From contig NZ_JACBFY010000005.1 in assembly GCF_021401245.1 (NCBI RefSeq), positions 520,288 to 584,287 of the forward strand: 64,000 nucleotides of DNA, in the 5' to 3' direction. Source of the DNA: Pseudacidovorax sp. NFM-22 (GTDB taxonomy: Bacteria; Pseudomonadota; Gammaproteobacteria; Burkholderiales; Burkholderiaceae_C). Below the pieces are notes generated by a model. That model was given only the letters and a program-made list of their open reading frames with translations. It had not been told where the DNA came from and made no database searches. Position numbers and translations under genes: made by a program. Shown here in pieces: positions 5,454-45,435 of this stretch. Each line of letters begins with the position of its first letter. Position 1 is the first letter of the stretch.

Positions 5454-5464
5454 TGGTTCAACCA
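5454..5464. promoter_or_regulatory. TGGTTNAACCA operator, site 1
   Basis: TGGTTCAACCA, an exact copy of the 11-bp palindrome repeated across the window. It lies 49 bp before the acyl-CoA dehydrogenase ATG at 5513. A weak -10-like AAGTAT (5449-5454) abuts it. Proposed binding site for a FadR-type GntR repressor. Confidence 0.75.
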
Positions 5465-5512
5465 ATTAGGTGCTAGCATGCCTGGCGTCCTTCTTCTTCT
5501 GCAAGCCCCGCC

Positions 5513-6670
5513 ATGCACCAACCCCACTGGATGAATGCCGAGCTCGAGTCGCTGCGCGATGCCGCGCGGCGCTTCTACGAAACCGAACTGGTGCCGCACG
5601 AGCCGCGCTGGTGCGCCCAGCAGCATGTGGATCGCGAGGTCTGGTACAAGGCCGGCGCCGCCGGCCTGCTGTGCCCCGGCATCGCCGAGGCCTACGGTGG
5701 CGGCGGCGGCAGCTTCCTGCACGAGGCCGTGATCTTTGCCGAGCAGGCCCGTGCCATCGCCGGCGGCATGGGCAACTCGCTGCACAGCGGCATCGTGGCC
5801 CATTACGTCGAGAACTTCGCCAGCGAGGACCAGAAGCGCCGCTGGCTGCCGAAGATGGCCACCGGCGAGCTGGTCGGTGCGCTGGCCATGACCGAGCCGG
5901 GCACCGGCAGCGACCTGCAGTCCATCCGCACGCGGGCACTGCGCGATGGCGATCACTATGTGGTCGATGGGGCCAAGACCTACATCACCAACGGCACCAG
6001 CGCCGACCTGATCTGCCTGGTCGCCAAGACCGATCCGTCGCAGGGCGCGCGCGGCGTGTCCATCCTGGTGGTCGAGGCCGCGAAGGTGACGGGCCTGCGC
6101 CGCGGCCAGCCGCTGCACAAGATCGGCATGCATTCGCAGGACACCTGCGAGTTGTTCTTCGACGGCATGCGCGTGCCCTGCGAGAACCTGCTGGGGCCCG
6201 AGGAGGGCCAGGGCTTTCGGCAGCTGATGAAGGAGCTGGCGCGGGAGCGGCTGATCACCGCGCTGATGTCCCTGGCCTGCATGGAGCGCGCCATCGAGGA
6301 GACGCTGCGCTTCACCGCAGGCCGGCGCGTGTTCGGCCAGCCGCTGCTCGAGATGCAGAACACCCGCTTCAGGCTGGCGGAATGCGAGACCCAGGCCCAC
6401 CTGGCGGGCGCCTTCGTCGACGACTGCGCCCGCCGCCTCCTGGCCGGCGCGCTGTCGCCCGCGACCGCCGCCATGGCCAAGTGGTGGGTCACCGACGCCT
6501 GCGGCAAGGTGGTGGACGAATGCCTGCAGCTGCACGGTGGCGCCGGCTACATGACCGAATACCCCATCGCCCGCCTGTACCAGAACGTGCGGGTGCACCG
6601 CATCCTGGCCGGCACCAACGAGATCATGAAGGAGCTGATCGCCCGCGACATGGCGCAGCGCGCGGTCTGA
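5513..6670 (+). CDS. Acyl-CoA dehydrogenase, LCAD/isovaleryl-type active site
   Basis: The 385-residue flavoprotein oxidises acyl-CoA to 2-enoyl-CoA. The FAD/substrate motif AMTEPGTGSD is near residue 125 and the C-terminal GTNEIMKELI motif near 371. The usual short/medium-chain catalytic Glu before 'GT' is Ala here (ILAGTNEI). A Glu in the RERL helix (about E245) matches the base used by long-chain and isovaleryl-CoA dehydrogenases, so the enzyme looks active and may favour branched or bulky acyl groups. It is monocistronic, with operator site 1 in its promoter and a Bug gene convergent downstream. Confidence 0.9.
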   Translation: MHQPHWMNAELESLRDAARRFYETELVPHEPRWCAQQHVDREVWYKAGAAGLLCPGIAEAYGGGGGSFLHEAVIFAEQARAIAGGMGNSLHSGIVAHYVENFASEDQKRRWLPKMATGELVGALAMTEPGTGSDLQSIRTRALRDGDHYVVDGAKTYITNGTSADLICLVAKTDPSQGARGVSILVVEAAKVTGLRRGQPLHKIGMHSQDTCELFFDGMRVPCENLLGPEEGQGFRQLMKELARERLITALMSLACMERAIEETLRFTAGRRVFGQPLLEMQNTRFRLAECETQAHLAGAFVDDCARRLLAGALSPATAAMAKWWVTDACGKVVDECLQLHGGAGYMTEYPIARLYQNVRVHRILAGTNEIMKELIARDMAQRAV

Positions 6671-6709
6671 CGCCGCGCCGCGCCGGGGCCCGGCCGGACG
6701 GCGCCGACG

Positions 6710-7678: not shown

Positions 7679-7760
7679 GGGTGTCTCCGTCTTGAGGGGT
7701 GGCGCGCGGCCCGCGTGCGCCGCGCCCGCCAATGTTTCAAAGCAGGCGCGGCACGTCAAT

Positions 7761-7771
7761 AGGTTCAACCA
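7761..7771. promoter_or_regulatory. TGGTTNAACCA operator, site 2 (variant)
   Basis: AGGTTCAACCA, one mismatch from the consensus. It sits in the 174-bp divergent region between the Bug gene (minus strand) and the quinone-oxidoreductase-like gene (plus strand), so one site could control both. A TAGCAT element follows at 7786-7791. Confidence 0.65.
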
Positions 7772-7852
7772 TACGATTTATCGGCTAGCATCTTCGGGCC
7801 TACCCACCCGAGCTGACTGGCGGCGCCCGCGCCGCCCCGGAGACATCGCCCC

Positions 7853-9685: not shown

Positions 9686-9730
9686 TCGACAAGCCGCCGA
9701 CGGCCATGTTAGATTTCCTTGGTCCAACCA
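9686..9730 (+). promoter_or_regulatory. Promoter with TGGTTNAACCA operator, site 3
   Basis: A sigma70-like promoter can be read as TCGACA (9686-9691), 17 bp, TTAGAT (9709-9714). The operator variant TGGTCCAACCA follows at 9720-9730, covering the expected transcription start. It serves the leader peptide and racemase gene. Confidence 0.6.
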
Positions 9731-9762: not shown

Positions 9763-9807
9763 ATGTCCCTCTGCACATCCATCCCCGCCGCCGGAGCGCC
9801 CCGCTGA
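9763..9807 (+). CDS. Possible 14-residue leader peptide coupled to the racemase gene
   Basis: The strongest Shine-Dalgarno in this leader (AGGAG, about 6 bp before ATG 9763) serves a 14-codon frame, [14 protein letters not shown]. Its stop overlaps the racemase ATG as TGATG at 9805-9809. The racemase start has no good box of its own, so its translation probably depends on ribosomes finishing this mini-frame. It could be a simple coupling device or a chance frame. No family resemblance is seen. Confidence 0.45.
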
Positions 9808-10943
9808 TGCCCGGCCCGCTCCACGGCGTACGCGTGATCGAGATCGCCTCGATCGGCCCCGGCCCGCTGGCCGCCATGCTGCTGGCCGACATGGGGGCGG
9901 AAGTGATCCGCGTCGACCGCCCCGGCCCGGCCGCCGGCGCAGGCATGGTTCCGCCGCACCAGGACATCTCGCGCCGCGGCCGGCGCTCCATCGCGCTGGA
10001 CATCAAGCAGGAGGCCGCCCGCGAGGTGCTGCTGCGACTGATCGACGGCGCCGACGTGGTGGTGGAGGGCTTCCGCCCCGGCGTGATGGAACGGCTGGGG
10101 CTGGGGCCCGACACCTGCCTGGCGCGCAACCCACGGCTGGTCTACGGCCGCATGACCGGCTGGGGCCAACAGGGGCCGCTGGCCGCGGCGGCGGGCCACG
10201 ACATCAACTACATCGCGCTGGCGGGCGCGCTGGGCATGATCGGGACGCCCGAGGCACCGGTGGCGCCGCTCAATCTGGTCGGCGACTACGGCGGCGGCAC
10301 CATGCTGCTGGCCTTCGGCATCGCCTGCGCGCTGTTCGAGGCGCGTGGCAGCGGTCAGGGCCAGGTGGTCGATGCGGCCATGGTCGATGGCGTGTCGCTG
10401 CTCATGACGCTGTTCCACAGCATGCAGGCCGCGGGCCGCAGCAAGCCGCGCGGCACCGGCGTGCTGGACGGCGGCAGCCACTTCTACGGCAGCTACCGCT
10501 GCGCGGATGGCGGCTGGATCTCGCTGGGCACCATCGAGCCGCAGTTCTACGCCCTGTTGCTGGAGAAGCTGGGCATCGAGGACCCCGCGGCCTGGCCGCA
10601 GCACGAGCCCAGCCGCTGGCCGGCACTGAAAGCCGAACTGGCGCGCCGGTTCGCCCAGAAGACACGCGACGAATGGTGCGCCCTGCTCGAAGGCACGGAC
10701 GTGTGCTTCGCGCCGGTGCTGGCCCTGGACGAAGTGCCCCGCCATCCGCACCAGGTGGCGCGGGACGCCTTCTACACGCAGGACGGCCTGACGCAGCCGG
10801 CGCCGGCGCCGCGCTTCAGCCGCTCGGCGCCCGAACGGCCGCGCCCGCCGGTGTCCGCGGGCACGGACACCGACGCGATCCTGCGTGAACTCGGCTACGG
10901 CGACACGGAGATCGCGGCCCTGCGCGGCGCCGGCGCGGGCTGA
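9807..10943 (+). CDS. Alpha-methylacyl-CoA racemase (CaiB/BaiF family)
   Basis: The 378-residue CaiB/BaiF protein carries the AMACR/MCR active-site set rather than a CoA-transferase one. His131 and Asp132 lie in [11 protein letters not shown], Asp160 in GDYGGG, and Glu244 in GTIEPQFY; these match H126, D156 and E241 of the mycobacterial racemase. Such enzymes interconvert (2R)- and (2S)-methylacyl-CoA so that methyl-branched chains can enter beta-oxidation. This is strong evidence that the cluster handles methyl-branched acyl-CoAs, such as isoprenoid or steroid side chains. It is preceded by operator site 3 and a coupled leader frame, and it converges with the kinase gene at 11018. Confidence 0.88.
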
Positions 10944-16342: not shown

Positions 16343-17551
<1,209 letters not shown>

Positions 17552-17607: not shown

Positions 17608-21427
<3,820 letters not shown>

Positions 21428-21452: not shown

Positions 21453-22226
21453 TCAGAGGCTGATGTGGAAGCCGCCGTTGACGCCGATGTGCTGGCCGGT
21501 CATGTAGCTGCCTGCATCGGACAGCAGGAAGGCCAGCATGCGCACCGCCTCCTCGGCGGTGGACCAGCGGCCCAGGGGAATCTGCGCCAGCATGCCGTCC
21601 TTGAACTTCTCGCCGCGCACCACTTCGGTCATGGGCGTTTCCACCACGCCGAAGCAGATGGAGTTGGTGCGGATGTTGTAGCGGCCCCATTCGCGGGCGG
21701 CGGTCATCGTCATGCCCAGCAGGCCGGCCTTGGCGGCGGCGTAGTTGATCTGGCCGATGGAACCCTTGCGGCCAGCGTCCGAAGAGATGTTGATGATCGA
21801 ACCGCCGCGGGTGTCGCCGCCGCGCGACCGCGCCACCATGTGCCGGCCCACGGCCTGCAGCCAGTAGAAGCTGCCGGTGAGGTGCACGTCGATCACGTCC
21901 TTCCATTGCTGGTCGGTCATCTTCTCGATCATGGCCGGGCGCGTGATGCCGGCGTTGTTGACCAGGCCGTGCAGCGCGCCGAAGCGCTCCACCGCCTCGT
22001 CCACGGCGCGGGTGGCCAGCGCGGCGTCTGTCACGCTGCCGACCACCGTCATCACCCGGTCGGCGGGCAGCTCGGCCATGGCGGAGCGCAGGCCGTCGCC
22101 GTTCATGTCCACCGCCACCACGCGGCCATCGAGCTGAACGATCAGCTCGGTCAGCGCCTTGCCGATGCCCTGGCCGGCGCCGGTGACGACGACCGTGCGG
22201 TCCTGCAGAGTGACGATAGGGTTCAT
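21453..22226 (-). CDS. SDR-family oxidoreductase, first gene of ten-gene operon
   Basis: The 257-residue short-chain dehydrogenase has VVTGAGQGIGKAL, NNAGITRP, NISSDAGRKGSIGQINYAAAK (Ser, Tyr, Lys) and a C-terminal GVNGG. It is likely a 3-hydroxyacyl-CoA or hydroxysteroid-type dehydrogenase. ATG 22226 was chosen because a GGAG box lies 9 bp upstream. Two upstream ATGs at 22241 and 22259 fall in or beside the operator. The gene heads the operon running to 11018 and is controlled by the promoter/operator at 22248-22288. Confidence 0.9.
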   Translation of the reverse strand: MNPIVTLQDRTVVVTGAGQGIGKALTELIVQLDGRVVAVDMNGDGLRSAMAELPADRVMTVVGSVTDAALATRAVDEAVERFGALHGLVNNAGITRPAMIEKMTDQQWKDVIDVHLTGSFYWLQAVGRHMVARSRGGDTRGGSIINISSDAGRKGSIGQINYAAAKAGLLGMTMTAAREWGRYNIRTNSICFGVVETPMTEVVRGEKFKDGMLAQIPLGRWSTAEEAVRMLAFLLSDAGSYMTGQHIGVNGGFHISL

Positions 22227-22247
22227 GAGTCGGTGCTCCATTTTGTT

Positions 22248-22288
22248 TGGTTGAACCAATGTTAGATGTTGGCAGATTCAGACGTCAA
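22248..22288 (-). promoter_or_regulatory. Promoter with TGGTTNAACCA operator, site 4 (ten-gene operon)
   Basis: Read on the minus strand: -35 TTGACG (22288-22283), 18-bp spacer, -10 TAACAT (22264-22259), then the exact operator TGGTTCAACCA (22258-22248) with no gap. A bound repressor would cover the transcription start. Confidence 0.75.
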
Positions 22289-22343: not shown

Positions 22344-22354
22344 TGGTTGAACCA
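22344..22354. promoter_or_regulatory. TGGTTNAACCA operator, site 5
   Basis: TGGTTGAACCA, an exact copy, extended to ATTTGGTTGAACCAATAT with near-perfect symmetry. It lies 46 bp before the thiolase-fold gene at 22401 and 85 bp from site 4, so the divergent region holds one operator per direction. A possible -10 (CCTATT) abuts it. Confidence 0.75.
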
Positions 22355-22400: not shown

Positions 22401-23576
22401 ATGACCATCAAGGGCAAGGCCTGCATCGCAGGGGCCTTCGAGCATCCGACGCGCAAGGCGCCGGACAAGACCGTGGCCCAGCTGCATGCCGAATGCGCGC
22501 GCGGCGCGCTGGCCGATTCCGGCCTCACGCTGCAGGACGTGGACGGCTACTTCTGCGCCGGCGACGCGCCCGGCCTCGGCGCCAACAGCATGGCCGACTA
22601 CCTGGGCCTGACCCGCCTGCGCCACGTCGACACCACGGATACCGGCGGCTCCGCCTACCTCATCCACGTGTCGCATGCCGCGCAGGCCATCGCCGCCGGC
22701 AAGTGCGACGTGGCGCTGATCACCCTGGCCGGGCGGCCGCGCACCGAAGGCGGCAGCGGCGTGGGCGTCGGTGCCCGCTTGGTGACGGCCGCCACGCCCG
22801 ACGCGGCGTGGGAGATGCCGTACTCGCCGGTCACGGTCAACATGTACGCCCTGGCCGCCGCGCGCCACATGCACGAGTACGGCACCACCCTCGAACAGCT
22901 GGCCTGGATCAAGGTGGCCGCCTCGCAGCATGCCCAGCACAACCCGCATGCGATGCTGCGGGAGACCGTGACGGTCGAGGAGGTGCTGGCCTCGCCGTTG
23001 ATCTCCGACCCGCTGCACAAGCTCGACTGCTGTGTGGTGAGCGACGGCGGCGGTGCCCTGGTGGTGGTGCGGCCCGAGATCGCACGCCGGCTCAAGCGGC
23101 CCGTGGTGCGGGTGCTGGGTGCCGGCGAAACCATCAAGGGCCAGCTCGGCGGCGCGGTGGACCTGACCTGGTCGGGCGCTGCCGTGTCCGGCCCGGCCGC
23201 CTTTGCCGAGGCGGGCGTGAAGCCGGCCGACATCCAGTACGCCTCGATCTACGACAGCTTCACCATCACGGTGCTGATGCAGCTGGAAGACCTCGGCTTC
23301 TGCCCCAAGGGCCAGGGCGGCCGCTTCGTGGCCGACGGCAATCTGATCTCCGGCGTGGGCAGGCTGCCCTTCAACACCGACGGTGGCGGCCTGTGCAACA
23401 ACCACCCGGCCAACCGGGGCGGCATCACCAAGGTGATCGAGGCGGTGCGCCAGCTGCGCGGCGAGGCCCATCCCAAGGTACAGGTGCCCGACTGCCGGCT
23501 GGCGCTGGCACAGGGCACGGGCGGCCTGCTCGGCTCGCGCCACGGCAGCGCCACGCTCATCATGGAAAGGGAATGA
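22401..23576 (+). CDS. Cys-less thiolase-fold protein (SCP-x/Ltp2 type), probable acyl-CoA aldolase or lyase
   Basis: The 391-residue thiolase-superfamily protein lacks the nucleophile: aligning AAQAI at 93-97 with thiolases puts Gly83 (DTGGSA) at the Cys position. A YDSFTITV segment (Tyr284) replaces the usual NEAF/HDCF motif. His335 remains in LCNNHP. Steroid side-chain aldolases such as Ltp2 and Sal1/Sal2 are Cys-less thiolase homologues that use tyrosines and need a DUF35 partner. A DUF35 gene follows after 4 bp, so a retro-aldol role is plausible. AGGAGA precedes the ATG at 8 bp, and operator site 5 lies upstream. Confidence 0.85.
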   Translation: MTIKGKACIAGAFEHPTRKAPDKTVAQLHAECARGALADSGLTLQDVDGYFCAGDAPGLGANSMADYLGLTRLRHVDTTDTGGSAYLIHVSHAAQAIAAGKCDVALITLAGRPRTEGGSGVGVGARLVTAATPDAAWEMPYSPVTVNMYALAAARHMHEYGTTLEQLAWIKVAASQHAQHNPHAMLRETVTVEEVLASPLISDPLHKLDCCVVSDGGGALVVVRPEIARRLKRPVVRVLGAGETIKGQLGGAVDLTWSGAAVSGPAAFAEAGVKPADIQYASIYDSFTITVLMQLEDLGFCPKGQGGRFVADGNLISGVGRLPFNTDGGGLCNNHPANRGGITKVIEAVRQLRGEAHPKVQVPDCRLALAQGTGGLLGSRHGSATLIMERE

Positions 23577-24785: not shown

Positions 24786-24852
24786 GCGCGATCGCCCGAG
24801 CGTCCTGCCGGGGCCCGGGGACGCGTCGTCGCTGTATTACGATTGCCCAAAG

Positions 24853-24863
24853 AGGTTCATCCA
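24853..24863. promoter_or_regulatory. TGGTTNAACCA operator, site 6 (degenerate), over the GntR ribosome binding site
   Basis: AGGTTCATCCA, two mismatches from consensus. It overlaps the AGAGG Shine-Dalgarno (24851-24855) and ends directly before ATG 24864 of a GntR gene. It suggests weak self-repression; the divergence from consensus makes this the least certain site. Confidence 0.45.
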
Positions 24864-25691
24864 ATGCCGACGAAGCGCATCTCCCCGTCCATTCCGCGCG
24901 CCAAGGCCGGCCCCGGCGCCACAGCCGCCCTCGCAGAACCGGCCGTCACGCCCCTGTTCCAGCCGGTGCGCACGCGCCGCACCTTCGAGGCGGTCGCCAG
25001 TCAGATCCGCGAACAGCTGGCCCGCGGCGAGCTGCGCCCCGGCGACCGGCTGCCCGCCGAGAAGGACCTGGCCGAGCAGTTCGATGTCAGCCGAAGCGCC
25101 GTGCGCGAGGCGCTGCGCAGCCTGGAGTCGGCGGGCGTGGTGGAGGCCCTCACCGGCCTGAACGGCGGCTTCTTCATCCGCAACGGCAAGCCCACCAGCC
25201 TGACCCAGTCCGTGCGCGACATGGTGTCGCTGCAGCAGGCGTCGATCGCCCACGTCACCGAGGCCCGCATCGAGCTGATGGCGGTGGCCATCCGCCTGGC
25301 CTGCGAGCGGGCCACCGAGGAGGAGATCGACGCCATCGAGGCCGACATCGACTACCACACCGACCTGTTCCGGCAAGGCCACGGCTCGCGCAATACCCAT
25401 TCGGTGATCCGCTTCTACCAGCTCATCGCCGAGGCCACCCACAACGAGGTGTTCACGGCGATGGTCGATGCGTTGTCGGAAATCATCCGCGGCCTGCTGG
25501 CCCAGGTGGACCCGCGTCCGCGCAAGGACTTCATGCAGGTGCGCCGCAAGGTGCTCACGCACCTGCGCGCCCGCGATGCCTCGGCCGCGGCGGCGGCCAT
25601 GACGGCACACCTCAAGCTCATCAGCGACTACCTCGAAAGCGAAAGCAAGAAGGCCGCGACCAAGCGCGCCGCTGCCCGCCGGGCCGCTTGA
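24864..25691 (+). CDS. GntR regulator, FadR subfamily (FCD domain), tandem copy 1
   Basis: The 275-residue protein has a GntR winged helix at about residues 33-100 (QIREQLARGELRPGDRLPAEK, VSRSAVREALRSLESAG). An all-helical FCD effector domain follows, with LIAEATHNEVF and VLTHLRARDAS. FCD proteins are acyl-CoA- or carboxylate-responsive repressors that bind TnGTnnnACnA-type palindromes, exactly the pattern repeated in this window. It is a prime candidate for the regulon repressor. An operator-like site overlaps its own ribosome binding site. A second GntR gene of identical length follows at 25712. Confidence 0.9.
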   Translation: MPTKRISPSIPRAKAGPGATAALAEPAVTPLFQPVRTRRTFEAVASQIREQLARGELRPGDRLPAEKDLAEQFDVSRSAVREALRSLESAGVVEALTGLNGGFFIRNGKPTSLTQSVRDMVSLQQASIAHVTEARIELMAVAIRLACERATEEEIDAIEADIDYHTDLFRQGHGSRNTHSVIRFYQLIAEATHNEVFTAMVDALSEIIRGLLAQVDPRPRKDFMQVRRKVLTHLRARDASAAAAAMTAHLKLISDYLESESKKAATKRAAARRAA

Positions 25692-25711: not shown

Positions 25712-26539
25712 ATGGCAACCAAGACTTCGTCTCCCTCCGCTCTCTCCGCCGCGCCGCATCCCGACCCGGCGGCGCCGGCCGTGCGCTTCCAGGCCGTGCG
25801 CTCGGCCCGCGCCTTCGAGGAGATCGCCGACCAGATCCGCACCGAACTGGCCGAAGGCCGGCTGAAGGTGGGCAGCCGCCTGCCGGCCGAACGGGCCCTG
25901 GCGGTGCAGTTCGGCGTGTCGCGCAACACGCTGCGCGAGGCACTGCGCTCGCTGGAACACGGCGGCCTGGTGCGGCTGCAGAAGGGCGCCAGCGGCGGTG
26001 CCTTCATCAGCGAAGGCTCGGGCCTGGCCATCACCACCAGCCTGATGGACCTGTACCACATCGGCACCATCACGCCCGCCCACCTGACCGAGGCGCGCAT
26101 CTGGCTCGAATCGGTGATCGTGCGCGAGGCCTGCAGCCGCGCCACGCCCGCGGACCTGGAGGCGCTGCGCAACAACGTCGAGGCCGCCGCTCAGGCCACG
26201 AAGGACGGCGACTTCCAGCGCCGCGCCGAGATGCACCTGGACTTCCACCGCATCCTGGCGCGCATGACGGGCAACCCGCTCATGGTGCTGATGATGGACA
26301 GCCTGATGGCCGTGCTCAGCCGTTTCATCCAGACCCTGGGCGAGTACGAGAACGCCTTTGTGCTGCCCTCGCGCAAGCGCTTCCTCAAGCACATGGAGGC
26401 GCGCGACGTCGACGCCGCCGTGGCCGAGATGGAGGCCAGCCTCAAGCGCCTGCAGAAGGGCTACCTCTCGCACCTGGCGACCGATGACGCTACGTCGGCG
26501 CCCGCGCCCCGCAGCCGCGCACCGGCCAAGAAGCGCTGA
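25712..26539 (+). CDS. GntR regulator, FadR subfamily (FCD domain), tandem copy 2
   Basis: The protein has 275 residues, the same length as the preceding GntR. The winged helix (QIRTELAEGRLKVGSRLPAER, VSRNTLREALRSLEHGGLV) and FCD domain (LDFHRILARMTGNPL, KRFLKHMEARDVD) are clearly related to copy 1 but diverged. Here the DFH metal-binding His is present, whereas copy 1 has FYQ. ATG 25712 lies 20 bp after the first stop. A TTG at 25688 overlapping that stop is an alternative start. The pair probably arose by duplication and may respond to different intermediates or form mixed regulation. Confidence 0.9.
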   Translation: MATKTSSPSALSAAPHPDPAAPAVRFQAVRSARAFEEIADQIRTELAEGRLKVGSRLPAERALAVQFGVSRNTLREALRSLEHGGLVRLQKGASGGAFISEGSGLAITTSLMDLYHIGTITPAHLTEARIWLESVIVREACSRATPADLEALRNNVEAAAQATKDGDFQRRAEMHLDFHRILARMTGNPLMVLMMDSLMAVLSRFIQTLGEYENAFVLPSRKRFLKHMEARDVDAAVAEMEASLKRLQKGYLSHLATDDATSAPAPRSRAPAKKR

Positions 26540-26636: not shown

Positions 26637-26676
26637 TTGCGTGCATGCGTCTTCGAGCCATAGAATGGCTCTACCA
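26637..26676 (+). promoter_or_regulatory. Promoter with TGGTTNAACCA operator, site 7
   Basis: TTGCGT (26637-26642), 18 bp, TAGAAT (26661-26666), with operator variant TGGCTCTACCA (26666-26676) starting on the last base of the -10 box. It serves the MaoC gene. The TAGAAT-operator junction is the same arrangement as in the Rieske promoter at 45405. Confidence 0.7.
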
Positions 26677-26714
26677 TTGACAAATGCATGGCCTGCAGCC
26701 GTGCGGCCACCACC

Positions 26715-27250: not shown

Positions 27251-27294
27251 TGGACAGCGCGCAGGGACGGGCCACAATCTTATTGGCCCAACCA
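27251..27294 (+). promoter_or_regulatory. Promoter with TGGTTNAACCA operator, site 8
   Basis: A weak sigma70-like promoter is TGGACA (27251-27256), 16 bp, CACAAT (27273-27278). Operator variant TGGCCCAACCA follows at 27284-27294. It serves the Bug-flavoprotein-crotonase operon starting at 27335. Confidence 0.6.
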
Positions 27295-27334: not shown

Positions 27335-28309
27335 ATGCACCGCCCGACCGCCGCCCGAATCCTCTGCCTGGCCTTCGCTGCCGCGGCGCCGGCACTCGCC
27401 GCCGCCCAGGAGGCGTATCCGACTCGGCCCATCACCATCGTCGTGCCCTACGCGGCCGGCGGCACCAGCGATGGCCAGGTTCGCATGTTCCAGGACGCGC
27501 TGGGCAAGGAACTGGGCCAGCCCATCGTGGTGGACAACCGCCCCGGCGCCTCGGGCGCCATCGCCGCCCAGCTGGTGGCGCGCGCACGGCCCGACGGCTA
27601 CACCCTGCTCTATCCCAACAACGGTGTGCTGACCACGCCGTTGCTCAACGACAAGGCCGGCTACGACGCCTTCAAGGACTTGCGGCCCGTGACGCTGACC
27701 TCGGTGGTGCCCATGGTGCTGGTGGTCAACAAGGCCGTGCCTGCGGACGACGCCAAGTCCTTCTTCGAATGGGCGCGCAAGCAGCCCAAGGGCGTCATGT
27801 ACGCCTCCGCCGGCACGGCCTCCTACGGCCATCTCTCCACGGCCCGCCTCATCCAGCTGTCGGGCATCAAGGCCGAACACATTCCCTACAAGGGCGAGGC
27901 GGCCTCCACCATGGCGGCGCGCACGGGCGAGGTGCAGATGCTGGTGACCACGCCCTCCTCCGCCATGCTGGGCCAGGTGCAGCAGGGCAACCTGAAGCTG
28001 CTGGGCGTCGGCACCCGGGAACCCTCCAGCGTGGTACCGGGCACCCCGCCCCTGAACCGCGCCGTGCCCGGCTACGAGGCCCAGGCCTGGTTCGGCGTCA
28101 TGGCACCGTCGGGAACGCCCGACGCCGTGGTGGAACGGCTCAACGCCGCCTTCCGCAAGGTCATGGCCGACGACGGGCTCAAGACCCGGCTGCTCGCCAC
28201 CGGGGCCGTGGCTCGCACCACCAGCCCGGCCGAGTTCGCCCAGATGATGAGGACCGAGTCCGATCAGCTGCGCGAGATCGTCACCCAGTTCAACATCAAG
28301 GCGGAATGA
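27335..28309 (+). CDS. Bug-family (TctC-like) periplasmic solute receptor
   Basis: The 324-residue receptor has a clean signal peptide ending ALAAAQ. It has YPTRPITIVVPYAAGGTSD, GQPIVVDNRPGASGAIA and RPDGYTLLYP, the Bug signature segments. A GGAAG box precedes the ATG. It heads an operon: its stop overlaps the ATG of a ketosteroid-dehydrogenase-like flavoprotein (ATGA at 28306), which in turn overlaps a crotonase gene. This direct coupling to catabolic enzymes suggests the ligand is the substrate or a related intermediate. No membrane subunits are nearby. Confidence 0.92.
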   Translation: MHRPTAARILCLAFAAAAPALAAAQEAYPTRPITIVVPYAAGGTSDGQVRMFQDALGKELGQPIVVDNRPGASGAIAAQLVARARPDGYTLLYPNNGVLTTPLLNDKAGYDAFKDLRPVTLTSVVPMVLVVNKAVPADDAKSFFEWARKQPKGVMYASAGTASYGHLSTARLIQLSGIKAEHIPYKGEAASTMAARTGEVQMLVTTPSSAMLGQVQQGNLKLLGVGTREPSSVVPGTPPLNRAVPGYEAQAWFGVMAPSGTPDAVVERLNAAFRKVMADDGLKTRLLATGAVARTTSPAEFAQMMRTESDQLREIVTQFNIKAE

Positions 28310-30096
28310 ACGCGCGCGCCCCCGAAGCGGCGGAGCACGACCTGGTGGTCGTCGGCTCTGGCGCAGCAGGCCTGACCGCCGCGATCACGGCCCGCAAGCG
28401 CGGGCTGGATGTGGTGGTGCTCGAAAAGGAGCCCGTCTTCGGCGGCACCACGGCACTGTCGGGTGGCGTGCTGTGGATTCCGCTGACGCACCACGGCCTG
28501 CGGCAGAACCCGGCCGACACCGCAGAACAAGTACGTGCCTTCATGCAGGCCGAGACCGGCCGGTTCTACGACGCAGCCGCGGTGGACGCCTTCATCGAGA
28601 ACGGCCCGCGCATGGTGGACTTCCTGGAGCGCGAGACGGCCATGCAGTTCGTGCCCACGCTCTACCCCGACTACCACCCCACCGCGCCGGGCGGCGCCGA
28701 CGTCGGCCGCTCGATCCTGGCCAAGCCCTACGACATCCGCGGCCTGGGCAAGGACATGGCCCGGCTCAAGCCGCCGCTGCGCAGCATCACCTTCATGGGG
28801 ATGATGTTCAACTCGTCCAACGCCGACCTGAAGCACTTCTTCCGGGCCACCAAGTCGCTCACCTCCTTCTTCTACGTGGCGCGGCGCCTGGCCAACCACC
28901 TCAAGGAGCTGCTGCTCTACCGCCGCGCCGTGCAGGTCACCAGCGGCAATGCGCTGGCGGCACGGCTGGCGCAGTCCGCGCTGGACCTGGGCATTCCCAT
29001 CCTGACCGGCATGCCGGCACAACGTCTGCTGGTGGAGGACGGCCGCGTCACCGGCGTGGTGGCCGGACCGGACGGGGCCGAGCGCACGCTGCGGGCACGG
29101 CATGGGGTGATCCTTGCCTGCGGCGGATTTCCGCACGACACCCGCCGGATCGCGCAGGCCTACCCGCACCTTCGACGCAGCCACCGCCACCTGTCGCCCA
29201 CGCCGCAGAGCAACACCGGCGACGGCTGCGCCATGGCCGAAGCGGCCGGCGGCGTGGTGGAGATCCGCTTCCAGGAGCCCGCCGCCTGGATGCCCGTCAC
29301 CCATGTGGATTTCGGCGGCGGCCAGACCGGCGTGTTCCCGCATCTGCTGGATCGCTACAAGCCCGGCGTGATCGGCGTGATGGCCAACGGCCGGCGCTTC
29401 ACCAACGAATCCAACTCCTACCACGACGTCGGCGCCGCCCTGCACCGGGCCTGCGAAGGCATGCCCGAGACCGCGATGTGGCTCGTCTGCGACCAGGCTG
29501 CGCTCAGCAAGTACGGCCTGGGCTACGTCAAGCCGGCGCCGATTCCGCATGGCGCGCTGCTGCGCAATGGCTATCTCCTGCGCGGCCGCACGCTGGAAGA
29601 GCTGGCCCGCAACGCCGGCATCGACCCTGACGGTCTGGCCCGCACCGTGGCCGACTACAACCAGCCCGCGGCGCGGGGCGAGGACCCGGCCTTCGGTCGC
29701 GGCAGCACCAGTTTCAACCGCTACCTGGCCGACCCCGAACACGGACCCAACCCCTGCGTGGCGCCCCTCGCCCAGGGGCCCTTCTACGCCATCAAGCTGC
29801 TGATGGGCGACCTGGGCACCTTCGACGGCCTGAGCACTGCCGTCACCGGCGAAGTGCTGCGCCGTGACGGCAGCACGATTCCCGGCCTCTATGCGGCGGG
29901 CAACGACCGAGCCAGCGTGATGGGTGGCAACTACCCGGCCGCGGGCATCACGCACGGGCCCAACATGGCCTTCGCCTTTCTCACGGCCAACCAGATTGCC
30001 GATCAGGCGCTGCAACTCGGCAAGGCGGCGCCGTCCATGCCAGTCGGGCAGCCGATGCCAGGCGTTGCGGCGGGCCAACCGGTGCAGGTGGCGTGA
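28306..30096 (+). CDS. FAD-dependent dehydrogenase, 3-ketosteroid delta1-dehydrogenase/fumarate-reductase flavoprotein family
   Basis: The 596-residue protein opens with the FAD dinucleotide motif VVGSGAAGLTAAITARKRGL. KstD-like landmarks follow: YPDYHPTAPGG, GRRFTNESNSYHD, and the C-terminal GNYPAAGITHGPNM. Tyr near 543 and Gly four residues later match Tyr487 and Gly491 of the Rhodococcus enzyme. The family removes hydrogens next to a carbonyl (1,2-desaturation of 3-ketosteroids) or reduces such alkenes. The start overlaps the Bug stop. It is paralogous to the product at 43628. Activity on a true steroid is not proven by sequence. Confidence 0.88.
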   Translation: MNARAPEAAEHDLVVVGSGAAGLTAAITARKRGLDVVVLEKEPVFGGTTALSGGVLWIPLTHHGLRQNPADTAEQVRAFMQAETGRFYDAAAVDAFIENGPRMVDFLERETAMQFVPTLYPDYHPTAPGGADVGRSILAKPYDIRGLGKDMARLKPPLRSITFMGMMFNSSNADLKHFFRATKSLTSFFYVARRLANHLKELLLYRRAVQVTSGNALAARLAQSALDLGIPILTGMPAQRLLVEDGRVTGVVAGPDGAERTLRARHGVILACGGFPHDTRRIAQAYPHLRRSHRHLSPTPQSNTGDGCAMAEAAGGVVEIRFQEPAAWMPVTHVDFGGGQTGVFPHLLDRYKPGVIGVMANGRRFTNESNSYHDVGAALHRACEGMPETAMWLVCDQAALSKYGLGYVKPAPIPHGALLRNGYLLRGRTLEELARNAGIDPDGLARTVADYNQPAARGEDPAFGRGSTSFNRYLADPEHGPNPCVAPLAQGPFYAIKLLMGDLGTFDGLSTAVTGEVLRRDGSTIPGLYAAGNDRASVMGGNYPAAGITHGPNMAFAFLTANQIADQALQLGKAAPSMPVGQPMPGVAAGQPVQVA

Positions 30097-30983
30097 TGGG
30101 CAAGTGGCGAACCGAAGCGCGCTTCGTCGGCATGACAGTGGACGACGGGGTCGCCCGCGTCACCCTCGACCATCCGGCACGCCGCAACGCCCTGTCGTGG
30201 GACATGCTGGTCGAGCTGCGGGCCGCGCTGCTGGAGGCGGACGACCTGCGCGCCGTGCATGTCATCGTGCTCGAAGGCGCAGGGCCGGACTTCTGCGCCG
30301 GCTACGACATGCAGTCGGCCTACGCGCGCTATGCCAGCGAATCCGCCGGCGAGGCCGGCGCGGACGTCTACCGCAGCGGCAGCGGCTCCTTCGACGACGA
30401 TGCCTGGAAGCTCGAGCGCTTCCAGGAACTGCTGCGCACGCCCTTCACGCTGCACAAGCCGGTGATCGCCAAGGTGCATGGCCATTGCGTGGCCGGTGGC
30501 ACCGACTTGGCGCTGTACTGCGACATGGTGATCGCCGCGGACGACGCCCGCATCGGCTTCCCGGCCACGCGCGCCATGGGCTCGCCGCCCAACCACATGT
30601 GGTTCTACAACGTGGGGCCGCAATGGGCCAAGCGGCTGCTGCTGAGCGGGGATGTGGTCAGCGGTGCCGATGCGGCGCGAATCGGCCTGGCCGTGGCCAG
30701 CGCACCGGCCGAGGCGCTGGAGCAAGAGGTGATGAGCCTGGCGCGCCGCCTCGCCACCATCGATGCGGAGCTGCTGGCCACCAACAAGCGCATCGTCAAC
30801 ATCGCACTGGAACTCGCGGGTGCCGGCACCATCGCCCGCCTGGCCGCCGAGATGGACAGCCGGGCCCACCTGAGCCGCGCCAAGCGGGAATTCGATGCCG
30901 ACGTGGCGGCGATGGGCTTCAAGGCCGCCGCACGTCGGCGGGACGAACCCTTCGGCGACGGCACGGTGCGACCCAGCTGGTGA
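30096..30983 (+). CDS. Enoyl-CoA hydratase/isomerase family protein, non-canonical active site
   Basis: The 295-residue crotonase-fold protein is longer than usual because of an insertion after CAGYDMQSAYARYAS. The conserved GHCVAGGTDLALYCDMVIA is present, but Asp replaces the first catalytic Glu (GGTD). The second is lost in RIGFPATRAMGSPPN. The reaction is therefore unclear; other crotonase chemistry such as C-C cleavage or isomerisation is possible. ATG 30096 overlaps the flavoprotein stop (TGATG). It is the last gene of the 27335 operon and converges with the Bug gene at 31053. Confidence 0.86.
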   Translation: MGKWRTEARFVGMTVDDGVARVTLDHPARRNALSWDMLVELRAALLEADDLRAVHVIVLEGAGPDFCAGYDMQSAYARYASESAGEAGADVYRSGSGSFDDDAWKLERFQELLRTPFTLHKPVIAKVHGHCVAGGTDLALYCDMVIAADDARIGFPATRAMGSPPNHMWFYNVGPQWAKRLLLSGDVVSGADAARIGLAVASAPAEALEQEVMSLARRLATIDAELLATNKRIVNIALELAGAGTIARLAAEMDSRAHLSRAKREFDADVAAMGFKAAARRRDEPFGDGTVRPSW

Positions 30984-31052: not shown

Positions 31053-32018
31053 TCAGAGCTTGACGCGCCCCGAGCGCACCAGCTTCTCCGAACTCGCCAG
31101 CTGCTCCTTAAAGAAGGCGTGCGTGCGATCCGGCGCCCAGCCGACCGAGTCGAAGCCCAGCTCGGCAATCTTGGCCTTGACGTCGGGCAGCAGCACGATC
31201 TCGTTGACCTCCTTCGTGAGCAGGTCCACCACGGCCTTGGGCGTGCCGGCGGGTGCCATCAGCGCCGCCCAGCCCGGCATGTCCACGCCGGGATAGCCGA
31301 GTTCGGCAAAGGTGGGCACGTCGGGATAGCTGGGCGAGCGCTCGGCCGAGGCCACGGCCAGCGTGCGGATGCGACCCGGGTAGCGCTTGGTGCCGCCGAT
31401 GGAGGCGCACACGGCCTGCACCTGGCCGCCGATCACGTCCTGCAGCGCAGGCGCCTCGCCCTTGTAGGGCACATGGATGGTCTCGATGCCGGCCGCCACG
31501 TTGAACAGCTCGCCGACGAAGTGCCCACCCGAGCCCTGCCCGTAGGAGGCGTAGGCGAGCTGCCCCGGCCGGGTCTTGGCCAGCGCCACGTACTGCCGCA
31601 GCGTGGAGGCCGCGAGGTTTTCGCTGATGCCCAGTGCGATGGGCGTGAGCGCGAGCATGCCCACGGTGCTGAAGTCCTCTTGCCGGTAACCCGGCTTGGA
31701 CATCAGCAGCAGGTTGCTGAGAAAGGCGCTATAGGCCAGCAGCAGCGTGTAGCCGTCAGGGGCAGCCCGGGCCACGGTCTGTGCCGCGATGGCACCGGTG
31801 GCGCCGGGCTTGGACTCCACGATCACCGGCTGGCCCAGCCGCTCGGTGAGCTTCTGGCCCACCAGCCGCATCATGATGTCGTGGCCGCCGCCCGGGGGCG
31901 TGGGGATGATGAAGCGGATGACGTTGTTGGGATAGCCCTGCGCCTGGGCCGCCGTGGTGGCGGCGCCGCCCAGGGTGGCCAGGCCGGCCGCCAGCACCTG
32001 TCGCCGGGAAAATTCCAT
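31053..32018 (-). CDS. Bug-family (TctC-like) periplasmic solute receptor
   Basis: The 321-residue receptor begins MEFSRRQVLAAGLATLG, an RR-type signal peptide, followed by YPNNVIRFIIPTPPGGGHD, GQPVIVESKPGATGAIA and APDGYTLLL. ATG 32018 gives the signal peptide directly; a longer frame would start inside the operator. It is a single-gene unit under operator site 9, convergent with the crotonase gene at 30096. The ligand is presumably linked to the regulon's substrate. Confidence 0.9.
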   Translation of the reverse strand: MEFSRRQVLAAGLATLGGAATTAAQAQGYPNNVIRFIIPTPPGGGHDIMMRLVGQKLTERLGQPVIVESKPGATGAIAAQTVARAAPDGYTLLLAYSAFLSNLLLMSKPGYRQEDFSTVGMLALTPIALGISENLAASTLRQYVALAKTRPGQLAYASYGQGSGGHFVGELFNVAAGIETIHVPYKGEAPALQDVIGGQVQAVCASIGGTKRYPGRIRTLAVASAERSPSYPDVPTFAELGYPGVDMPGWAALMAPAGTPKAVVDLLTKEVNEIVLLPDVKAKIAELGFDSVGWAPDRTHAFFKEQLASSEKLVRSGRVKL

Positions 32019-32036: not shown

Positions 32037-32047
32037 TGGTTGAACCA
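32037..32047. promoter_or_regulatory. TGGTTNAACCA operator, site 9
   Basis: TGGTTGAACCA, an exact copy, 18 bp upstream of the Bug gene start at 32018 (minus strand). A GTAGAT sequence abuts it on the upstream side and may be the -10 box; no convincing -35 was found. Confidence 0.75.
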
Positions 32048-37606: not shown

Positions 37607-37617
37607 TGGTTCAACCA
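37607..37617. promoter_or_regulatory. TGGTTNAACCA operator, site 10
   Basis: TGGTTCAACCA, an exact copy, 49 bp upstream of the acyl-CoA dehydrogenase start at 37557 (minus strand). It should control the five-gene operon down to DUF6285 at 32206. An AATCAT sequence abuts it on the upstream side; the -35 is unclear. Confidence 0.75.
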
Positions 37618-37701: not shown

Positions 37702-39246
37702 TCAGACGATGCGGCTGCTGCGGCCGCTCCAGTAACGCTCGCGCAGGAGCCGCTTGTAGAGCTTGCCGTTGTCCTGGCGTGGCATCTGGGCCTCGAAGTC
37801 GATGCTGCGCGGACACTTGAGCGCGGCCAGGCGCGAGCGGCAGAAGGCCAGCAGTTCCGCTTCCAGCGCGGGGCCGGCTTGGTCCATGTCCACCGGCTGG
37901 ACCACGGCCTTCACTTCTTCGCCGAATTCGGCGTTGGGCACGCCGAACACGGCCACGTCCATGACCTTCGGATGCAGCGTGAGCACCCCCTCGGCCTCCT
38001 GCGGATAGATGTTCACCCCGCCCGAGATGATCATGTAGGCCTTGCGGTCCGTGAGGTAGAGATAGCCTTCCTCGTCAAGGTAGCCCACGTCGCCCAGGGT
38101 GGACCAGCCCTGCGCGTTGAACACGCCCTCGGTCTTGCCGGGGTCGTTGTGGTAGGTGAAGCGACGGCTTCCCTCGAAGTAGATGGTTCCGGGCTCGCCG
38201 GGCGGCAGCACCCGGCCCTCGTCGTCCACGATGCGGATGGTGTTGAGCAGCGACCTGCCGACCGAGCCGCGGTGCGACAGCCATTCCTCGGAGGTGATGA
38301 AGGTGCAGCCCGAGCCTTCCGAGCCGCTGTACTGCTCGACGATGCACGGCCCCCACCAGTCGATCATCTGCTGCTTGACGTCCACCGGGCAGGGTGCCGC
38401 GGCATGCAGGGCGCAGCGCAGCGAGGACACGTCATAGGACGCGCGCACCTCGGTGGGCAGCTTGAGCATGCGTACGAACATCGTCGGCACCACCTGCGTG
38501 TGCGTCACGCCGAAGCGCTGGACGGCGGCAAGGAACCCCTCGGGGTCGAACTTCTCCATCACCACCACGGTGCCGCCCATGCGCTGCACCGTCGTACTGA
38601 AGCCCAGCGGCGCCGCATGGTAGAGCGGTGCCGGCGAGAGATAGATCGTGTCCTCGTCGAAGCCCAGGGTGCGCGCGAAGGTCGCCATGATGGGCACCAT
38701 GGCCTCGACCGGGTTGTTGGCGAAGGGCACCTTGATGCCCTTGGGCTGACCCGTCGTGCCCGAGGAATACAGCATGTTGTGGCCCCCCACCTCGTCGGCA
38801 ATGGGCGTGTCGGGGCGAGTGCCCGCGGCTTCTTCCCACCGCGCGAAGGCGCCGAAGGATGCGTCCACCGCCAGGCAGTGCGCCACGGCGGGGCAGAGGT
38901 CCGGCAGTTGCAGTGCCACCGTCTGCATGGCCGCCGAGGACACCAGCGCCGCGGCGCCGCAGTCGTTGACGATGTACGCCGCCTCGGCGGCGCTCAGGTG
39001 CGTGCTGATGGGTGTGAAGTACAGCCCCGCACTCATCGCGGCCCAATAGACCTCGTAGAAGCGGAGGTTGTTCTCCATCAGCACGGCGATGTGGTCCCCC
39101 GGGCGCAGCCCGAGGGCACGCAGGAGGTGCGCGCCCTGATTGGCGCGCGCTGTCAACGCGGCGTAGCTGAGGACAGCACCGGTGCCAGCCATGATGACGG
39201 CCGCCTTGTCGGGGTGGCGGAGGGCGGCGAGGCGGGGATGGGTCAT
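37702..39246 (-). CDS. AMP-forming acyl-CoA ligase
   Basis: The 514-residue ANL-superfamily ligase has MLYSSGTTGQPKGIKVPF near residue 160, VEQYSGSEGSG, GDVGYLDEEGYLYLTDRKAYM and the C-terminal Lys motif RQDNGKLYKRLLRERYW. It forms acyl-CoA from a carboxylate, ATP and CoA. It stands alone under operator site 11 and is probably the entry enzyme or a second activation step for a degradation intermediate. ATG 39246 is the family start; open frame further upstream is antisense to other sequence and discarded. Confidence 0.92.
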   Translation of the reverse strand: MTHPRLAALRHPDKAAVIMAGTGAVLSYAALTARANQGAHLLRALGLRPGDHIAVLMENNLRFYEVYWAAMSAGLYFTPISTHLSAAEAAYIVNDCGAAALVSSAAMQTVALQLPDLCPAVAHCLAVDASFGAFARWEEAAGTRPDTPIADEVGGHNMLYSSGTTGQPKGIKVPFANNPVEAMVPIMATFARTLGFDEDTIYLSPAPLYHAAPLGFSTTVQRMGGTVVVMEKFDPEGFLAAVQRFGVTHTQVVPTMFVRMLKLPTEVRASYDVSSLRCALHAAAPCPVDVKQQMIDWWGPCIVEQYSGSEGSGCTFITSEEWLSHRGSVGRSLLNTIRIVDDEGRVLPPGEPGTIYFEGSRRFTYHNDPGKTEGVFNAQGWSTLGDVGYLDEEGYLYLTDRKAYMIISGGVNIYPQEAEGVLTLHPKVMDVAVFGVPNAEFGEEVKAVVQPVDMDQAGPALEAELLAFCRSRLAALKCPRSIDFEAQMPRQDNGKLYKRLLRERYWSGRSSRIV

Positions 39247-39259: not shown

Positions 39260-39270
39260 TGGTTCAACCA
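39260..39270. promoter_or_regulatory. TGGTTNAACCA operator, site 11
   Basis: TGGTTCAACCA, an exact copy, 13 bp upstream of the ligase ATG at 39246 (minus strand). A TAGTAT -10 candidate lies at 39281-39276, five bases from the operator. Little untranslated leader would remain. Confidence 0.75.
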
Positions 39271-43560: not shown

Positions 43561-43582
43561 TGTCCGTCCTCGAAAATGTGTA

Positions 43583-43620
43583 TGGTTCTACCATTCTTGC
43601 ACAAGCACACCGGGAGGCAA
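43583..43620 (-). promoter_or_regulatory. Promoter with TGGTTNAACCA operator, site 12 (divergent)
   Basis: Operator variant TGGTTCTACCA at 43583-43593 lies between the CoA-transferase gene (minus) and the flavoprotein gene at 43628 (plus). On the minus strand TTGCCT (43620-43615), 16 bp, AAGAAT (43598-43593) runs straight into the operator. Both directions could be controlled by one site. Confidence 0.68.
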
Positions 43621-43627
43621 TCGGTAA

Positions 43628-45322
43628 ATGACCCTGGACATCCCTGAGACGGAAGCGGACCTGCTGGTGATCGGCGCCGGCGCCGCAGGCATGACGGCCG
43701 CGCTCGTCGCCGCGCTGGAGGGACTGCGCGTGGTGCTGTGCGAAGCCACGCAGCAGGTGGGCGGCACCACCGCCACTTCCGCCGGCACGCTGTGGATTCC
43801 GGGCAATCCGCAGGGCGTCGCCGCGGGCCATGGGGACACGGTGGACGCCGCACGCACCTACCTCGATGCATTGATCGGCGAGCCCGACCACGACGGCCGA
43901 CGCGAGGCCTTTCTGGGCAGCGGACCCGCCATGCTGCGCTACCTCGAAGCGCGCACGGCCGTGAGGTTCGCGAGTGCCGGCATGCATCCGGACTACCTTC
44001 CGCATCTGCCCGGCGCGGCCGTCCGGGGCCGGGCCGTCTCTCCCCTGCCCTTCGATGGACGGCTGCTGGGCGCCGACTTCGGACGCGTGCGCCCACCCCT
44101 GGCCGAGTTCATGGTGCTGGGGGGCATGATGCTCGGCAAGGCAGACATCGCCGCCCTGGTCGGCCGCTATCGCTCATGGCGGGCCTTCATCCACAGCGCG
44201 CGGCTGGTGCTGCGCCACGCCCGCGAGCGCATCCGGCATCCGCGCGGGGCCCGGTGGGTGATGGGCAATGCTCTCGTGGGCCGACTGCTGCACAGCCTGC
44301 GCACGGCGGGTGTGCAGCTGCACTTCGGCACCCGGCTGCGCGGGCTCGAGATGGAAGGCGGGCGCGTGGTGGGCGCACGGGTGGACGCACATGGCCAGAC
44401 GCGGGTGATGCGTGCACGCCGGGGCGTCGTGCTGGCCACGGGCGGCGTGGGCCATGACGCGGCGCTGCGGCATCTTCTTGCGCCGCAGGGGCCGACCATG
44501 CTCGCGCTCGCGGCCGAGGCGGTGCGCGGCGACGGCCTGGGTGCGGGTCGCGCAGCCGGGGCGGCGCTGACGGGCCTGGAGCGGCCATTCCTCTGGCAGC
44601 CGGTGTCGGTGGTGCACCGCAAGGACGGCTCGACCGGCCTCTTTCCGCACTTGTTCCTGGACCGGGCCAAGCCCGGTCTGATCGCCGTGGACGGCCGGGG
44701 CCGCCGCTTCGTGGACGAGGCGGCGTCGTACCACCATTTCGTCGAAGGCATGGTGCGTGCGGACGCGGTGCCCGCCCAGCTGGTGTGCAGCACCGCCTTC
44801 ATCCGGCGCCACGGGCTGGGCGCCATCGCGCCCGGCACGCGCGACCTGCGGCCCTGGGTGGCGCGTCGAATGCTGGTGGTCGCGCCGACGCTCGATGCGC
44901 TGGCGCAAACGCTGGGCCTGCCGGCCGCCACCCTGGCCGACACCGTACAGCGCCACGACCACTGGGCCCGGCTCGGCGAGGACCCGGATTTCCACAAGGG
45001 TGCCTCGGTGTTCGACCGCTTCAACGGCGATCCGGCACACGCCCCCAATCCCTGTGTCGGACCGGTAGGGCCGGGACCGTATGCCGCCATGGCGGTATGG
45101 CCCGGGGATGCGGCATCGAGCGCCGGGCTGGCCACCGACGCCCAGGGCTGCGTGCTCGACGCGCACGGTCGCCCCATCGGCGGGCTCTATGCCTGCGGCA
45201 ACGATGCAGCCTCGCCGATGCAGGGCCACTATCCCGGCCCCGGCACGACGCTGGGGCCTGGCATGGCCCAGGCCTACCGCATCGCACGCCATGCCAGCGC
45301 AGCGGGCCGCGGTGGCAGCTGA
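43628..45322 (+). CDS. FAD-dependent dehydrogenase, 3-ketosteroid delta1-dehydrogenase-like
   Basis: The 564-residue flavoprotein has VIGAGAAGMTAALVAALEGLRV, MHPDYLPHLPGAAV, GRGRRFVDEAASYHHF and, near the C-terminus, GHYPGPGTTLGPGM. In this last segment Tyr (about 535) and Gly four residues on match Tyr487/Gly491 of Rhodococcus KstD. Paralogous to the 28306 product but only moderately similar, so the two may act on different intermediates. It lies 68 bp from the divergent CoA-transferase gene and just upstream of the Rieske oxygenase promoter, recalling KstD/KshA pairing in steroid ring opening. Confidence 0.87.
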   Translation: MTLDIPETEADLLVIGAGAAGMTAALVAALEGLRVVLCEATQQVGGTTATSAGTLWIPGNPQGVAAGHGDTVDAARTYLDALIGEPDHDGRREAFLGSGPAMLRYLEARTAVRFASAGMHPDYLPHLPGAAVRGRAVSPLPFDGRLLGADFGRVRPPLAEFMVLGGMMLGKADIAALVGRYRSWRAFIHSARLVLRHARERIRHPRGARWVMGNALVGRLLHSLRTAGVQLHFGTRLRGLEMEGGRVVGARVDAHGQTRVMRARRGVVLATGGVGHDAALRHLLAPQGPTMLALAAEAVRGDGLGAGRAAGAALTGLERPFLWQPVSVVHRKDGSTGLFPHLFLDRAKPGLIAVDGRGRRFVDEAASYHHFVEGMVRADAVPAQLVCSTAFIRRHGLGAIAPGTRDLRPWVARRMLVVAPTLDALAQTLGLPAATLADTVQRHDHWARLGEDPDFHKGASVFDRFNGDPAHAPNPCVGPVGPGPYAAMAVWPGDAASSAGLATDAQGCVLDAHGRPIGGLYACGNDAASPMQGHYPGPGTTLGPGMAQAYRIARHASAAGRGGS

Positions 45323-45382
45323 GGCCGGGGCGCGCACAAGGTGCCGGTCCGCGCTCCTTTTGCGCGCCTCGTGCCGAGGCGC

Positions 45383-45435
45383 TTGACGTGCCGAACGAGT
45401 TTCATAGAATTGGTTCTACCAATTTGGCTCAACCA
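45383..45435 (+). promoter_or_regulatory. Strong promoter with two tandem operators, sites 13 and 14
   Basis: The best sigma70 promoter in the window: TTGACG (45383-45388), 16 bp, TAGAAT (45405-45410). Operator TGGTTCTACCA (45411-45421) abuts the -10 box. A second operator, TGGCTCAACCA (45425-45435), follows with centres 14 bp apart. It serves the Rieske operon starting at 45473. It is the only promoter here with a doubled site. Confidence 0.8.

Follow-up and report, generated by a model that had tools for sequence, protein, structure and literature searches.

Fourteen predicted operators of a probable FadR-type GntR repressor in a catabolic gene cluster of Pseudacidovorax sp. NFM-22

Regulators of the FadR subfamily combine GntR and FCD domains and, according to passages of PMC4494728, recognize A/T-rich palindromes of the consensus TKGT-N3-ACMA, with single sites in divergons. 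Passages of the paper on AlkR (PMC12042122) give TGGNNNNNCCA as the FCD consensus and long-chain acyl-CoA as the effector. Here we describe 14 predicted operators in a stretch of 64,000 nucleotides of the Pseudacidovorax sp. NFM-22 genome (C17:520288-584287, hereafter the window; about 1% of the 6.42-Mb genome, 70.8% G+C). The predicted operator is an 11-bp palindrome, present over 40 kb in six exact copies of TGGTTNAACCA (5454, 22248, 22344, 32037, 37607 and 39260) and in eight variants with one or two changes. All six exact sites fit TKGT-N3-ACMA, and the variants deviate from it at one or two positions; the motif thus suits the FadR-subfamily palindrome that the first-pass annotation of this DNA brought up, as far as the cited passages describe that type. 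The locus differs from the regulons described there in that a catabolic gene set of some 40 kb is involved, with 14 sites and two tandem regulators, GntR1 and GntR2. It resembles that of AlkR, as the passages describe it, in having an FCD regulator of a catabolic function and a palindrome over the -10 region; AlkR, which has the core ATTGTCAGACAAT and targets alkane oxidation genes, is likened to GntR1 by description and not by sequence. Five spellings of the core were looked for in 5.39 million open-access papers and none occurs there, while TGGNNNNNCCA occurs in one paper; among the papers listed by literature searches none deals with the regulon or the cluster.

We propose that the 14 sites are probably the operators of a FadR-type GntR repressor, most likely GntR1 alone or together with GntR2, which would be released by a CoA thioester. 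This reading is favoured because six of the eight exact copies, and 12 of the 21 copies of an extended form of the motif, fall within 1% of the genome. According to this model, GntR1, alone or with its tandem neighbour, would bind at or just past the -10 box, the bound repressor would block RNA polymerase at the start site of the operons flanking 12 intergenic regions, and a CoA thioester of the pathway would free it from the operators. In this scheme we infer the binding of GntR1/GntR2 to the sites, the repression that follows binding and the acyl-CoA effector.

Read directly from the DNA are the clustering of the sites, their noncoding position, their conservation before homologous genes and their co-occurrence with GntR1. 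All 14 sites were confirmed letter by letter at the positions first reported, and all are intergenic, occupying 12 intergenic regions (Table 1), on a manual gene map based on frame composition and Pfam. When up to two mismatches were allowed the window contained 20 matches, while shuffled sequences gave a mean of 6.69 (standard deviation 2.58, largest value 13) and none of 100 shuffles reached 20. Fifteen of the 20 matches are wholly noncoding, including all the listed sites, in a window that is 5.3% noncoding; the fifteenth, at 63842, lies at the window end, where the gene map is weak. In the whole genome there are eight exact copies of TGGTTNAACCA, six of them inside the window (a share with a binomial P of 2.7e-11), and 21 matches to the extended form WTGGYHSDRCCAW, 12 of them inside (2.6e-19; three for the reversed control). 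A motif just as common in coding DNA, or over the genome at large, had been set beforehand as the outcome that would speak against a regulon; these counts (8/6, 21/12 and 15/20) gave a different picture. A search at one mismatch without flanks gives 76 places in the genome and 75 for the reversed control, and the motif is therefore usable only in its exact form or with A/T flanks. The looser pattern first put forward, (T/A)GGnnnnnCCA, is unspecific, with 47 places in the window, 16 of them wholly noncoding.

Table 1. Predicted operators and GntR/FCD regulator genes in the window
Feature	Position	Strand	Context	Remarks
Operator, exact	5454..5464		Upstream of ACAD1 (5513-6670 +)	14 bases from start of DUF3606 gene (5057-5440 -)
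Operator, 1 mismatch	7761..7771		TctC1 (-) / QOR-ECH1 (+) intergenic	ALPHA2B copy identical
Operator, 1 mismatch	9720..9730		Upstream of CaiB1 (9807-10943 +)	-10 box end 4 bases upstream
Operator, exact	22248..22258		Touches -10 box of SDR2 (21453-22241 -)	Kept in 7 aligned sequences
Operator, exact	22344..22354		Upstream of SCP2-thiolase a (22401-23576 +) and OB-fold partner (23581-23979)	
Weak operator-like site, 2 mismatches	24853..24863		Overlaps ribosome-binding site of GntR1	
Operator, 2 mismatches	26666..26676		Upstream of MaoC (26688-27194 +, start uncertain)	Identical in L031-L034
Operator, 2 mismatches	27284..27294		Upstream of TctC2-KstD1-ECH3 (27335-30983 +)	Root473: same site before TctC2
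Operator, exact	32037..32047		Upstream of TctC3 (31053-32018 -)	Kept in L031-L034
Operator, exact	37607..37617		Upstream of pimC-pimD-FadD1-APH2 (37557 to 32634 -)	Main conserved block, 6 sequences
Operator, exact	39260..39270		Upstream of CoA ligase FadD2 (37702-39228 -)	G053: two sites before FadD2
Operator, 1 mismatch	43583..43593		CaiB2-thiolase b-OB-ACAD4 (-) / KstD2 (43628-45322 +) intergenic	
Tandem operators 45411 and 45425, 1 mismatch each	45411..45435		Upstream of Rieske (45473-46789 +)	14 bp apart
GntR1, FadR-type, favoured repressor	24864..25691	+		GntR 5.9e-20, FCD 5.4e-16
GntR2, tandem paralogue, possible co-repressor	25712..26539	+		GntR 2.3e-19, FCD 1.6e-22
GntR3, FCD regulator, less likely	46799..47605	+	In Rieske gene set behind tandem operator	
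GntR4, FCD regulator, probably not part	56296..57099	-	Next to porin gene, beyond site range	

For the genes that lie past the sites (ABC, glycosyltransferase and porin), no upstream site at up to two mismatches was found, in agreement with the first-pass annotation for the ABC and porin genes. Its further claim, that the sites give a functional boundary for the pathway, is too strong, as the window does not contain every good site: an exact, A/T-flanked copy at C17:391840 (L099:8840-8850), 128 kb away, stands upstream of a CaiB-NMO-TctC operon. The regulon therefore probably extends past the window, and the idea of a regulon closed at the window edge was rejected.

Homologous genes with sites before the same genes are present in P. 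intermedius, Comamonadaceae bacterium ALPHA2B, the Pseudacidovorax Gw_Bodden metagenome-assembled genome (Bodden MAG), ULC146bin1 (ULC146), Variovorax sp. Root473 (G122 in our survey), genome G053, C. metallidurans CH34, V. paradoxus VAI-C and a plasmid of Delftia acidovorans. Gene order differs in the last six of these from ULC146 onwards, and the sites still precede the homologous genes. ALPHA2B has a counterpart in place for each of the 14 sites, 11 of them identical and three variant (ACAD1, CaiB1 and TctC2). Of four promoter regions that were aligned, three show the operator as the chief, and nearly the sole, block of conservation: SDR2/thiolase (seven sequences), pimC (six) and CaiB2 (five); at site 43583, TGGTAGAACCA is free of variation across the five aligned sequences. 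The Rieske upstream alignment (six sequences) is poor, with sites varying in number and position; the tandem arrangement recurs in three relatives (L112, L115 and L108). Over whole records WTGGYHSDRCCAW was counted 21 times in P. intermedius, 20 in ALPHA2B, 19 in ULC146 and 15 in the Bodden MAG (controls 3, 5, 6 and 2), and in the cluster contigs 12, 12, 7 and 9 times, respectively. This cross-genus comparison supports one shared regulatory system. The sequence AGGTTSATCCAATG (24843-24866), which lies over the GntR1 ribosome-binding site, is found in the window, in four Pseudacidovorax-like loci, in ULC146 and in CH34. In the ULC146 and CH34 copies the centre base alone is altered, as a palindromic site would predict.

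The position of the sites relative to promoters was analysed twice. In the first test, for which 56 site directions were picked by hand in seven genomes or records, 35 promoter-like offsets were found, of which 25 had a -10 box ending between seven bases before and one base into the operator, a span of nine of 160 offsets. The test was repeated on the 53 pattern sites of the same records, unpicked and in both directions. It gave 31 matches in the nine near offsets, while the remaining 151 offsets gave 27; near promoters were present in 30 of the 106 directions, compared with 13 of 4000 random positions, these being mostly coding and G+C-rich, and 28 of the 53 sites lie near a promoter-like pair (one of six in Delftia). 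The unpicked test thus points the same way as the first, although its coverage is weaker. The final T of the -10 box can come from the operator itself, the flanks are A/T-rich, and homologous promoters are not independent of each other. Upstream of SDR2, whose downstream genes extend to about 11018, the order TTGACG, 17 or 18 bases, TATCAT, then operator is found in Root473, G053, ULC146 and CH34; in the window the -10 box is TAACAT, again followed by the operator. Upstream of Rieske, the promoter-like TTGACG-N16-TAGAAT ends at the first tandem site (45411). That many operators adjoin a -10 box suggests repression at transcription start, and the tandem sites 45411 and 45425 may allow cooperative binding.

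Four GntR/FCD genes are present in the window and not three as first listed, the gene at 56296-57099 having been missed. GntR1 shares 100% identity with its counterpart in the Bodden MAG and 96% with the P. intermedius DSM 21352 protein. Both GntR1 and GntR2 carry an N-terminal GntR winged helix and a C-terminal FCD domain, the two domain features of the FadR subfamily. They differ from its named members by scoring far under the NCBIfam cut-offs for FadR, NanR, LldR, PdhR and GlcC (GntR1: NanR 105.6 of 260, LldR 91.5 of 311, PdhR 90.1 of 330; GntR2: NanR 113.3 of 260, FadR 54.7 of 189). Many FCD proteins bind a metal through a triad of ligand histidines. In the aligned triad columns GntR1 has Y, R and H and GntR2 has H, R and S, so that each lacks two of the three histidines, all of which are retained in GntR3 and GntR4; this loss would be in keeping with a ligand as bulky as a CoA ester. 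Among the candidates scored, 390 GntR1 homologues were found at E<=1e-40. Of the 120 matches listed, 68 GntR1 homologues that matched the search pattern have FY, and those homologues that have a name in their source are called only GntR/FadR-type, some of them pyruvate dehydrogenase repressor type. This points to an undescribed regulator group.

Co-occurrence of GntR1 and the sites was surveyed in 150 Comamonadaceae genomes, our own (G000) included. GntR1 matches at E<=1e-30 were found in eight, and close ones only in our genome, Root473 (68%) and G053 (59%). SCP2-thiolase genes are present in 17 genomes at 21 loci. A site (up to one mismatch, within 400 bases upstream of the SCP2-thiolase gene) was found in all three genomes with a close GntR1 and in none of the other 14, a split with a chance by counting of 1 in 680, or of 1 in 120 when our own genome is left out; the remaining 18 loci, including the second G053 copy, have no such site upstream. 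In addition, a pimC-GntR1 divergon with an operator between the genes is found in Root473, ULC146, CH34 and Delftia. In P. intermedius DSM 21352 (L109:7405-7882) a decayed GntR1-like relic, matching at 53-55% in pieces, lies opposite pimC, and the operator between them persists. A search of 349 genomes of the order for GntR1 at E<=1e-60 returned our own genome alone; the Cupriavidus relatives were taken from a plasmid collection.

Several observations weigh against GntR1 as the repressor acting at the -10 boxes. The distribution of GntR2 nearly equals that of GntR1, the tandem being co-conserved, and our genome has 34 FCD genes. On the Delftia plasmid (NZ_CP065697.1, L123:10065-13349) the sites remain although GntR1 is cut short, being annotated with 255 bases beside an IS1071 transposase gene. 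In CH34 no pattern match lies upstream of the Rieske gene. Within the window a near promoter was found in the repeat test for five of 12 pattern sites, or five of the 14 listed sites. Whole-genome counts of the loose form WTGGYHNDRCCAW do not follow GntR1 (control in brackets): G071, of the same genus as our genome and without a GntR1 match, has 22 (1), G044 33 (8), G055 19 (7), Root473 26 (2) and G053 14 (4). Also in the stricter form WTGGYYSWACCAW, counted on both strands minus the control (21 in our genome, 12 in G053, 11 in Root473, 10 in G080 and 8 in G029), G080, without a GntR1 match, nearly equals Root473. The loose WTGGYHNDRCCAW counts were rejected as a co-occurrence test, being unrelated to the presence of GntR1; the motif signal is clustering at promoters rather than raw count. 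G080, G029 and G012, all without a GntR1 match, have motif matches above their controls and perhaps contain another FadR-type regulon with a similar word.

GntR1 is preferred, short of proof because the distribution of GntR2 is nearly the same. That GntR2 is the true repressor of the set, with GntR1 limited to its own divergon or to another role, appears unlikely to us, even though GntR2 is 66-78% identical in Root473, G053, ULC146, CH34 and VAI-C, all of which have site clusters, its recognition helix SRNTLREAL is identical in four aligned orthologues, VAI-C has a site upstream of GntR2, and in Delftia, where GntR1 is cut short, a GntR2 relative (48%) is annotated as intact. The operator in the pimC-GntR1 divergon of four genomes counts against GntR2 as sole reader, as does genome G097 (L104), where a GntR2 relative (55%) lies beside CaiB2 and SCP2-thiolase c homologues and the 3.8-kb locus contains no pattern site. 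The earlier statement that one repressor coordinates the set accordingly divides in two: the shared regulatory system is backed by the cross-genus comparison, and the single repressor is unproven, GntR1 and GntR2 being inseparable here.

We consider it improbable that GntR3, or another of the 34 FCD regulators of the genome, reads the sites. The Rieske set that follows the tandem operator includes GntR3, which has the same place in CH34 and VAI-C, and similar words are bound by many FadR-type proteins according to passages of PMC4494728. In the fetched stretches of ULC146 and Root473, however, GntR3 is unmatched between Rieske and TctC4, and both retain sites. On the B. plantarii plasmid a GntR3 relative (48%) accompanies Rieske, CaiB2 and SCP2-thiolase c genes, yet the 41 kb contain no pattern site, nor a match to GntR1 or GntR2. 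GntR3 was rated less likely as the main regulator on these two grounds.

Binding of an activator or a dual regulator in place of a repressor would account for sites that have no promoter by the consensus test, such as those of ACAD1 and TctC3. The 28 of 53 sites at a -10 box or start site fit a block better than activation from upstream, and in the passages of PMC12042122 the FCD protein AlkR acts as a repressor at a site that covers the -10 region; we consider an activator or dual regulator very improbable. That the cluster is due to chance, or is a repeat element with no part in regulation, has next to no probability: single matches can be chance, and one of the eight exact genome copies, C15:164792, was rejected as a target as it sits in an integrase-core transposase gene, but the enrichment, the noncoding position and the cross-genus conservation speak against it.

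For the genes behind the sites, Pfam and NCBIfam indicate acyl-CoA dehydrogenases, hydratases of the enoyl-CoA and MaoC types, CoA transferases and ligases, SCP2-type thiolases together with OB-fold partners, another thiolase, a FadB-like enzyme, an NMO-family enzyme, TctC receptors, two KstD-like flavoproteins and a Rieske oxygenase. Such a set resembles a pathway acting on a polycyclic or alicyclic compound that has a branched side chain, judging from the KstD-like pair, the Rieske oxygenase, the pimC/pimD-type acyl-CoA dehydrogenase pair, the SCP2-type thiolases with OB-fold partners, the CoA ligases and transferases and the TctC receptors. The likeness to steroid-type CoA side-chain and ring pathways lies in the nearest solved structures, which are 3-oxosteroid/3-ketosteroid dehydrogenases for KstD1 and KstD2, acyl-CoA dehydrogenase 4x28 in the case of pimC, and for SCP2-thiolase a both thiolase 4u4e and lipid-transfer proteins. 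We take 4x28 and 6ok1 to be proteins of steroid side-chain breakdown. Unlike in such pathways, KstD1 (419.4) and KstD2 (403.6) stay below the cut-off of 788 for 3-oxosteroid 1-dehydrogenase (NF005882), and the structure nearest to the Rieske oxygenase (45473-46789) is PDB 7fhr, a putative phthalate 4,5-dioxygenase subunit (E 1.8e-247). A firm steroid substrate was not adopted: the nearest structures are steroid-like, but the scores lie below the curated steroid cut-offs. The CH34 homologue of the Rieske oxygenase is 78% identical to that of the window, and PMC12445078 compares a Rieske oxygenase from CH34. A DUF7064/DUF7065 protein (20354-21427) lies within the putatively controlled gene set and has homologues in the related clusters.

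The 14 sites would constitute a new regulon of a known kind, that of FadR-type GntR proteins, a reading well supported by comparison. More tentatively, it is possible that a portable regulon exists, in which one operator word and two paralogous FadR-type repressors, inherited together, unite a steroid- or terpenoid-like CoA pathway that occurs in two families and is located on chromosomes, on megaplasmids and on a conjugative plasmid (Pseudacidovorax, Variovorax, Cupriavidus and Delftia). Its operons would have been reshuffled with their operators kept, so that the operator and not the gene order would be the inherited unit, and the two repressors, with FCD domains that have lost the metal site, would read different CoA esters of the pathway. 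For the organisms concerned, a large set of otherwise anonymous CoA-ester genes would be assigned to a defined regulon, with membership open to a simple test by sequence, and the same cluster is at hand in named strains, P. intermedius DSM 21352 and C. metallidurans CH34. The cluster would also provide a pathway context for the CH34-type Rieske oxygenase, whose relative 7fhr has been solved, and the identity of the effector would point to the substrate of the pathway.

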